Shown one piece after another: positions 51,764 through 53,463 of a stretch of 64,000 nt of DNA. The stretch covers positions 1,612,001 to 1,676,000 of the forward strand of contig NZ_FOIU01000001.1 of assembly GCF_900111495.1 (NCBI RefSeq), written 5' to 3'. Under the pieces are notes generated by a model. The model had not been told where the DNA came from, made no database searches, and saw only the letters and a program-made list of their open reading frames with translations. Made by a program: the position numbers and the translations under genes. Source of the stretch: Chryseobacterium wanjuense. Lineage in GTDB: Bacteria; Bacteroidota; Bacteroidia; Flavobacteriales; Weeksellaceae. The stretch's first letter is position 1, and each line of letters begins with the position of its first letter.

Positions 51764-52393
51764 CTATGTCAAATCAAATCTCATTAAGTCGTCAAGATCT
51801 TTTAATAAAGGATTTTTATCGATGAATTTTTCGAAGATTTTTCTTTTGGTCATCACTTCAACCTTCAGGTTTTCAAAGTCTCTTTTATACTCTATTTCAA
51901 TGGCAAAGTTGTGAACTTTTGTTTTAAAATGATTGAAAAAAGCCCTGCTCACCTTATCAAATTCAACCTTTGCGGAATCTGACGGATACAAGACCGTAAT
52001 CTTATTTTCGTCTGATTTCAGCATTTTGAATGTCTTAATGGCGTTGAAAACGAATGTATCTTTGGTTTGAAGTTGTTTCAATAATAGGTTCCATTCCATT
52101 TGCAGATCTGTTTCTGTGAAATGGTTTTGCGGAAGATCTTCGGTTTTCACAACAGTACTTTCTTCTTCCTCAGGCTTCTCTTCTTTGTTCATTAAAGAGC
52201 TGATGCTGATTCCGGAAGAAACAATCTGTTTAGATAAAGGCTTTGTCGTTTTTTTAATCTCAACCTCCTGAACCATGTTCAGACTAATTACCGTTTCTGC
52301 CTTCTCTTCTGTTTTTTTCTCCTGAGGTATTTCAGGAAGCTTTACCTCCTGCTTTTCATGAAGAAACGGGGCTAATATTATAAACTTTTTTTT
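51764..52393 (-). CDS. dnaX: DnaX tau-specific C-terminal part, reached by frameshift
   Basis: This frame opens exactly at the A-run at the end of the gamma frame: the codon just upstream is TAA, and from AAG at 52387 the frame is open for 207 codons. It starts KFIILAPFLHEKQEVKLPE, then a Glu/Lys-rich linker, then a folded domain (TDLQMEWNLLLKQLQTKDTFVFNAIKTF ... LKDLDDLMRFDLT) typical of tau C-termini that bind the polymerase alpha subunit. A -1 shift would join it to the ATPase part for a tau of about 566 residues. An internal ATG at 52276 exists but has no clear role. Confidence 0.8.
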   Translation of the reverse strand, partial: KKKFIILAPFLHEKQEVKLPEIPQEKKTEEKAETVISLNMVQEVEIKKTTKPLSKQIVSSGISISSLMNKEEKPEEEESTVVKTEDLPQNHFTETDLQMEWNLLLKQLQTKDTFVFNAIKTFKMLKSDENKITVLYPSDSAKVEFDKVSRAFFNHFKTKVHNFAIEIEYKRDFENLKVEVMTKRKIFEKFIDKNPLLKDLDDLMRFDLT

Positions 52394-53463
52394 TTAGAAA
52401 CGTCTGAATTAGCCGTCAGAGAAGCCAGTTGCATGAGAGCAATTTCTACTGTCAGTCGAGGATTTTTTGAATTTTTATAATTAATATCCGCATGATTACA
52501 GATCTCTATAGCATCGATTAGCTGTTGAGCATTCCAGTTTTGCGCCTGCTGCACAAATTTGGATTTTGTTTGTTCGCCAACCTCAATAAGATCAATGGTA
52601 GACGCATTTTGAGCCATCATCAAATCTCTGAAATGATTTCCTAGCCCTGCAATGAAAATATGCGGATCGAAACCTTTTTTTACAATTTCATTAAATGCAA
52701 AAAGTACTTCAGGAATTTTGTTTTCTTTGGCTAAATCCACCACTTTCAGATATTGGTCATAATCCAAAATATTTAAAACCTCTGCAGCTTTTGCAAGGGT
52801 AATATTTTTTTGGGAGAATGTAGAAAGCCTGTCAAAAATAGATAAGGCATCTCTTAGTGCGCCATCTGCTTTTTGGGCAATTAAATATAATGCATCATCT
52901 TCATACTGAATATTCTCTTTCTGAGCAATATTCCTAAGATGACCCTGGATATCTTCTATGGTGATTCTCTTGAAATCGTAAATCTGGCAACGTGATAAAA
53001 TCGTAGGAATGATTTTGTGCTTTTCCGTTGTAGCCAAAATAAAGATGGCGTGAGCCGGCGGCTCTTCAAGAGTTTTAAGGAAAGCGTTAAAGGCAGCAGA
53101 AGACAGCATGTGAACCTCGTCTATGATATATACTTTGTATTTACCAACCTGAGGCGCAAAACGAACCTGATCGATCAGTTCCCTGATATCATCTACAGAG
53201 TTGTTCGAAGCTGCATCCAGTTCATAGATATTGTACGCAAAACCGTCTTCTGAAACTGAACCATCCTTTTCATTGATCTTTCTTGCCAAAATTCTGGCAC
53301 ATGTAGTTTTTCCTACTCCTCTTGGTCCGCAGAACAATAAAGCCTGAGCTAGCTGATTTTCTCCAATCGCATGTTCTAAAGTATCCGTAATGTGTGATTG
53401 CCCAACAACAGTGTCAAACTCCTGTGGACGATACTTTCGTGCAGATACGATAAAATTTTCCAT
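52378..53463 (-). CDS. dnaX: DNA polymerase III gamma/tau ATPase, gamma form (DnaX)
   Basis: This 361-residue clamp-loader ATPase is the unshifted product. It has Walker A GPRGVGKTTCARIL (about 45-58), ELDAASNNSVDDIRE, the Walker B-like IIDEVHMLSSAAFNAFLKTLEEPP, and sensor/SRC motif LSRCQIYDFKRI. The usual four-cysteine zinc module before ELDAAS is missing; this stretch is INEKDGSVSEDGFAYNIY. The chain ends SKKKSL two codons past a run of ten As, as gamma does in bacteria that make gamma by frameshift. Confidence 0.92.
   Translation of the reverse strand: MENFIVSARKYRPQEFDTVVGQSHITDTLEHAIGENQLAQALLFCGPRGVGKTTCARILARKINEKDGSVSEDGFAYNIYELDAASNNSVDDIRELIDQVRFAPQVGKYKVYIIDEVHMLSSAAFNAFLKTLEEPPAHAIFILATTEKHKIIPTILSRCQIYDFKRITIEDIQGHLRNIAQKENIQYEDDALYLIAQKADGALRDALSIFDRLSTFSQKNITLAKAAEVLNILDYDQYLKVVDLAKENKIPEVLFAFNEIVKKGFDPHIFIAGLGNHFRDLMMAQNASTIDLIEVGEQTKSKFVQQAQNWNAQQLIDAIEICNHADINYKNSKNPRLTVEIALMQLASLTANSDVSKKKSL
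52386..52395 (-). promoter_or_regulatory. 10-A slippery run in dnaX
   Basis: Ten consecutive As (minus strand) follow the TCT serine codon. The gamma frame stops two codons later; the tau frame is closed by TAA immediately before the run and open after it. A -1 shift therefore must happen inside the run. It is similar in principle to A-AAA-AAG in E. coli dnaX and to the A9 transcriptional slippage site in Thermus dnaX. A homopolymer sequencing error is the main alternative. Confidence 0.7.

Follow-up and report, generated by a model that had tools for sequence, protein, structure and literature searches.

A conserved long A-run with a drifting tau frame suggests programmed transcriptional slippage in the dnaX gene of Chryseobacterium and other Bacteroidota

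Known dnaX recoding systems and the gene of Chryseobacterium wanjuense

In Thermus thermophilus, dnaX contains a run of nine A's (A9) and is subject to transcriptional slippage (PMC1088944, PMC5009743). mRNAs of heterogeneous run length are produced, and gamma and tau are made at about 1:1; tau is encoded in frame and gamma arises by slipping. In E. coli, dnaX uses a -1 ribosomal shift at A_AAA_AAG (PMC3711429, PMC5009743). Antonov 2013 (PMC3711429) described 17 two-ORF dnaX genes, nine of them with ten A's, in which tau depends on recoding. Transcriptional realignment was suggested for these genes, and mixed shift directions were taken as a mark of such realignment.

The dnaX gene reported here (locus L315) lies in a 64,000-nucleotide stretch of Chryseobacterium wanjuense DNA (hereafter the window). 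Its features are as follows.

52378..53463, minus strand: dnaX gamma ORF (0 frame), AAA+ clamp-loader part, 361 aa (sequence, ORF translation, Pfam)
52386..52395, minus strand: A10 run (T10 on the plus strand), putative slippage site (direct reading)
52378..52380, minus strand: gamma-frame stop codon TAA, preceded by AGT TTA past the A10 run (direct reading)
52394..52396, minus strand: TAA ending the tau (-1) frame ahead of the run, whose first two A's it shares (direct reading)
51764..52384, minus strand: tau C-terminal region, -1 frame, 206 codons plus stop (BLASTP, profile, codon-position pattern)
52334..52350, minus strand: hairpin AGGAGG-TAAAG-CTTCCT named in the initial annotation, judged non-functional (not conserved)

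The minus strand at the join reads GAC GTT TCT AAA AAA AAA AGT TTA TAA, so that the gamma frame runs through TCT-AAA-AAA-AAA-AGT-TTA-TAA and stops, exactly as the initial annotation had read it. The -1 frame reads TTC TAA AAA at the start of the run and, once past an AAG codon, runs 206 codons before reaching its stop at 51764-51766 (minus strand); the 207 open codons that had been counted earlier are these 206 plus AAG. The product lengths proposed there, 361 residues for gamma without a shift and about 566 for tau with a -1 shift, agree with the 361-aa ORF and with 360+206 = 566 residues. Both non-tau frames close early, about 1-2 and 9 codons past the run. On the gamma ORF, Pfam identified DNA_pol3_delta2, DNAX_ATPase_lid, and DNA_pol3_gamma3; no Pfam family matched the tau C part. 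Tau C of the window is nevertheless recognizable in dnaX genes that are single-frame (BLASTP, 42% identity to L075 and 34% to L104), and a tau C profile of the family matches 64 of 71 single-frame tau C regions. In 40 close pairs drawn from 65 genus loci, the differences downstream of the run number 518, 361, and 1740 at codon positions 1, 2, and 3. Because they pile up on position 3, the frame after the run behaves as coding.

Tau C might also be a separate protein, translated from an internal start by coupled translation and requiring no recoding. An in-frame ATG is available for this (ORF 51764-52276). However, conservation of the tau frame begins at the run itself, ahead of that ATG (the FIILAPFL block), and relatives encode one continuous protein across the same join. 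A separate, internally started protein was dropped as the main reading on these two grounds, and we regard it as extremely improbable.

The window gene resembles Thermus dnaX in having an A-run of at least nine in the gamma/tau linker, in giving gamma and tau from one gene, and in the stops that lie nearby in both non-tau frames. The run is A10 in the window, as opposed to A9 in Thermus, and the layout is inverted: the genomic frame of the window gene is that of gamma, and tau lies in the -1 frame and needs a slip, so that the Thermus arrangement with tau in frame does not hold. The single-frame relatives do have tau in the genomic frame, as in Thermus. With E. coli dnaX the window shares the gene, the two products, and an A-rich site. 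However, the E. coli shift yields gamma, and the window has neither an in-frame A_AAA_AAG nor a conserved hairpin. The closest match is the cluster of Antonov 2013: a gamma ORF joined at a poly-A run to a tau-C ORF in the -1 frame, ten A's, tau obtained via recoding, and slippage as the suggested mechanism. Since two-ORF, ten-A dnaX genes are reported there, the window dnaX is a further member of an already described kind. Compared with the 17 genes of that study, the present analysis covers 297 genomes and 80 named loci (partly overlapping) and includes single-frame and +1 relatives. The new elements are this wider coverage, the single-frame and +1 relatives that share the run, the signature of stops in two frames, and the swap to a ribosomal-type site described below. 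Among the open-licence papers listed for dnaX slippage or frameshifting, none on conservation of the run across Bacteroidota was found.

Conservation of the run and drift of the tau frame

Gamma matched in all 148 genomes of the genus sample. In 146 of them the gamma frame, counted from the preceding stop, is 361-376 codons long; the remaining two (G063 and G128; 350 and 281 codons) have A9 and look disrupted. In the family sample, all 100 genomes gave a match and 98 a full gamma match, of which 96 are broken (361-419 codons) and two are open (G197, 560 codons; G162, 593 codons). The order, class, and phylum samples are mosaics of broken and open dnaX genes. Because the gamma frame is 361-376 codons in 146/148 genus genomes, the break is not a sequencing error in the run; its conservation across the genus and family samples rules this out. 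Phase variation at the DNA level, or an error of assembly, would be a related explanation. A-runs are unstable and error-prone, and the A9 in the disrupted copies of G063 and G128 could be taken in its favor. Nevertheless, the frame relation is identical in 65 of 67 genus loci and in 80 of 82 other family loci, and stops are maintained in two frames, which makes this explanation very improbable.

The survey comprised 301 loci of 297 genomes from the genus, family, order, class, and phylum samples, all scored alike. Four loci (L233, L237, L248, and L259) repeat genomes G338, G343, G313, and G320 and are left out of the final per-genome counts. Note that loci were partly picked by frame state (one set of broken class members; a second of six further broken class members, seven single-frame siblings, and seven genus members; and a third of single-frame loci); survey proportions are therefore not frequencies in nature. 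Comparing run and frames across relatives, as had been proposed for a check, bore out the observation: the break is kept in the genus and the family, and an A-run of at least nine is found at the gamma/tau linker in 278/297 genomes (A10 in 204, A11 in 52, A9 in 17, A12 in 2, and A13 in 3). Taking one locus for each of 130 genera, A10 occurs in 89, A11 in 14, A9 in 11, and a run shorter than nine in 16.

In the window's family, the tau frame is at -1 in 145 genomes and in frame in two, and the two disrupted copies have no assignment. Outside the family, tau is in frame in 83 genomes (68 with an A-run of at least nine), at -1 in 54 (52 with such a run), and at +1 in seven (L064, L067, L133, L156, L157, L174, and L181), all with such a run; four genomes have no frame assigned. 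L147 was assigned to -1 by homology, and the loci without a frame are L166 and L167 (G128 and G063, disrupted), L130 and L195 (reduced genomes), and L143 and L155 (contig ends). The run occurs in all three phases, and the next base is G, T, or C. The initial annotation had held that relatives without a frame break would speak against recoding. Such relatives do occur, as the 83 genomes outside the family and the two inside it show; since most of them, including both family genomes, keep an A-run of at least nine in frame, they fit slippage rather than refute recoding. The single-frame and +1 relatives show that conservation lies in the run rather than in the frame.

How often the frame has changed was estimated on a rough tree (FastTree, about 150 residues, 184 of the 298 usable loci). 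At least 32 frame changes are required, 31 when only the 170 loci with a run of at least nine are considered, and the presence or absence of the run changes nine times. Because 20 shuffles of the frame labels require 57-71 changes versus 32, the frame partly follows descent. Independently of the tree, 11 of the 39 genera with at least two loci have mixed frame states.

The A-run device is not universal in Bacteroidota, since some loci of the class, of other classes, and of the named scan lack a long run: a run of at least nine is missing in 5/20 single-frame class loci and in 7/20 loci of other classes. Among 80 named Bacteroidota loci, which overlap the survey genomes in at least three contigs (L396/G182:C4, L418/G473:C10, and L439/G247:C1), 63 have such a run, exactly A10 in 55. 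It is missing in 17 (7/12 among loci with GC above 50%). Fourteen of these bear the names Bacteroidaceae, Bacteroides, Prevotella(ceae), or Bacteroidales in their titles, although the run is retained by other Bacteroidales. Three named loci have a +1 layout (L406, L417, and L471). In the same scan, DnaX of Chryseobacterium lathyri is 95% identical to the query. L431, from a MAG titled Chryseobacterium gleum, is just 58% identical and is probably misnamed.

Several lineages differ in detail. In L156-L162 (genomes of about 600 kb, family f16), the longest run is 7-11 and the frame varies; two of these loci are +1 with A11 and the rest are single-frame. In the very reduced genomes of L130 (G254, a 345-kb contig) and L195 (G392), gamma is cut short and a tau C frame could not be recognized; L130 has a T11 run directly behind the gamma stop. 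L270, L271, L272, L279, and L281, from other classes of the phylum, have single-frame dnaX with exactly A9, possibly a lineage-specific tuning of run length.

Signals of ribosomal shifting and stops in the other frames

The initial annotation had left open whether tau is made by a ribosomal -1 shift or by slippage. The shift at the A10 run was upheld, and the comparison favors slippage over the ribosomal mechanism. For the latter, programmed -1 frameshifting on A_AAA_AAA inside the run would make tau. All 145 broken family loci with an assigned frame require a -1 shift, as such a mechanism would have it, and tRNA-Lys(ttt) is the sole tRNA-Lys seen in the 18 tRNA loci, out of 30, that were scanned (part of the 63 tRNAs). 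It is also reported that cassettes of another gene with 7-11 A's shift at 10-63% in E. coli (Antonov 2013, PMC3711429). Outside the family, A_AAA_AAG is in frame at 24 of 53 long-run -1 loci (two duplicate genomes counted). In the gamma frame of the family, however, A_AAA_AAG occurs in 0 of 145 loci, the window included, and the E. coli-type heptamer was dismissed as the signal of the window. Furthermore, ten A's are maintained where seven would do, and +1 layouts occur at such runs in the seven genomes and three named loci listed above.

The hairpin AGGAGG...CTTCCT that the initial annotation had placed about 35 nt downstream does exist in the window, 35 nt past the run. It is not conserved: at least five of the six pairs are possible at this position in only 21 of 65 genus loci, and the hairpin was dismissed as a stimulator. 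RNA behind the run in the genus is more folded than shuffled sequences (mean z -1.65) and weakly better folded than synonymous recodings (mean z -0.9); the remaining sets examined, from the family and the order, give z of -0.35 to 0.17 against synonymous recoding. No conserved stem-loop a few nt downstream was found in the window's genus, and visual inspection of the 30 nt preceding the window run revealed no Shine-Dalgarno-like stimulator.

A stem-loop of that kind is present in three genomes of family f7 (G258, G285, and G491; loci L369, L371, and L372; genera g49 and g63), whose dnaX genes have no long A-run. They read CCA-AAA-AAG-TAG/TAA, followed 5-6 nt behind the heptamer by a stem GGTCTG...CAGACC. 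Its outer part is constant, and the inner sequence varies yet still pairs by eye. The three stems have energies of -26.5, -20.3, and -19.9 kcal/mol; relative to synonymous recodings, G258 shows a strong fold (z -3.7) and G285 does not (z -1.4). These sites carry the E. coli kind of signal, but tau is the shifted product. The heptamer and hairpin probably function as a ribosomal shift site, and the mechanism seems to have changed to the ribosomal type within the same order as the window, which also lends the ribosomal explanation some plausibility for the window itself.

The stops around the run bear further on the choice. For a ribosome that shifts only by -1, closing a single frame would suffice, whereas a polymerase that both gains and loses A's calls for two closed frames; closure of both frames therefore counts for slippage. 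Observed stops were compared with those expected under synonymous recoding of the downstream codons with the gene's own codon use; note that related loci are non-independent, so that the observed and expected counts are not p-values. Among single-frame genomes with a run of at least nine, both non-tau frames are stopped within 15 codons in 66/67 versus 26.7 expected, and the +1 frame alone is closed in 66/67 versus 34.2 expected; this test omits L158-L162 (reduced genomes) and loci without a run of at least nine within 200 nt of the anchor. At random places in the same genes, both frames are closed in 47%. Among genes that require a shift, both frames are closed within 15 codons in 141/145 in the window's family (80.9 expected) and in 55/59 elsewhere (23.8 expected). 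All 63 named loci with a run of at least nine have both frames closed within 15 codons, and 59 within 10. With the third frame closed as well, the ribosomal explanation is unlikely for the window gene.

Probable transcriptional slippage and its significance

The most convincing explanation, and in our judgment a highly probable one, is programmed transcriptional slippage at the A10 run, a Thermus-type mechanism in an inverted layout. It is favored because run length is kept but frame is not, because +1 as well as -1 layouts occur, and because both other frames are closed and the family has no A_AAA_AAG in frame. RNA polymerase would slip while copying T10, producing mRNAs with one or more A's extra or missing. 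Unslipped mRNA would give gamma (361 aa). A run changed by +1 (or the equivalent modulo 3) would place tau C in frame and give tau of 566 aa, the length of which may vary by whole lysines depending on the slipped run length. The remaining class of mRNA would end 9 codons past the run, giving a gamma-like protein. We infer that slippage takes place in Chryseobacterium wanjuense, at some rate, and that its clamp loader employs both proteins. As a counterpoint, long A-runs contain A_AAA_AAA, which can be slippery for ribosomes too, so that ribosomal shifting may contribute as well. Broken genes are also biased to -1 over +1 (145/145 in the family; 52 versus 7 among those with a long run elsewhere), which is beyond what slippage alone predicts.

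Other A-runs of the genome were inspected as well. A10 or longer runs number 38 (43 overlapping matches), and the first 30 of the 43 matches, corresponding to 27 runs, were examined. In three of the 27, a long ORF terminates at the run and a different frame stays open behind it: dnaX, L320, and a gene in the R-body (reb) locus. L320 appears to be a gene boundary, where one gene ends and the following one begins. The reb-locus gene is placed as follows.

G000:C1:753682-754221, plus strand: slippage-like candidate gene in the R-body (reb) locus, adjoining RebB (Pfam PF11747) (L305/L376)

Its long ORF stops right after the A10 run and a conserved frame continues; no Pfam match was found for it. 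The gene is present in 19 of 60 genus genomes, where the run is 9 to 11 long and the downstream frame stands in all three relations to the upstream frame. The downstream part is alike in 11 of the 19 loci (those picked by the filter, which missed eight). DNA-level phase variation is a serious rival explanation for this run. Chryseobacterium is among the genera rich in reb genes (PMC13430693), and the available text of that paper makes no mention of frameshifting or slippage. A search of the open-licence literature for RebB and frameshifting gave only unrelated papers among the matches listed. Elsewhere in the genome, the gene of a 577-codon NUMOD4 protein contains an in-frame A11 (L318, G000:C1:1935529-1935539), and the other frames close soon after it. 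In the window, A9 matches on both strands number 8, fewer than in dinucleotide shuffles (mean 30.7).

For the phylum as a whole, we consider the following probable, with less confidence than slippage in the window gene. Bacteroidota dnaX would carry an old A-run slippage device, with selection acting on stops in both other frames and on the length of the run, which is mostly A10, and A9 or A10 in those sister classes that have the device. The tau frame would drift among 0, -1, and +1 since slippage supplies all three. Several Bacteroidales would have lost the device, in one clade a ribosomal shift driven by a hairpin would have taken its place, and the R-body gene would be a second use of it in the window's genus.

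The C-terminal part of tau in E. coli holds the polymerase and the helicase. If slippage is indeed the mechanism, a replication protein, in its tau C part, would depend on transcription "errors". Frame drift over a fixed run, together with closure of two frames, provides a test from evolution that needs no experiment and helps in telling transcriptional recoding apart from the ribosomal kind. Automatic annotation may label such dnaX genes as broken or truncated when they are intact.
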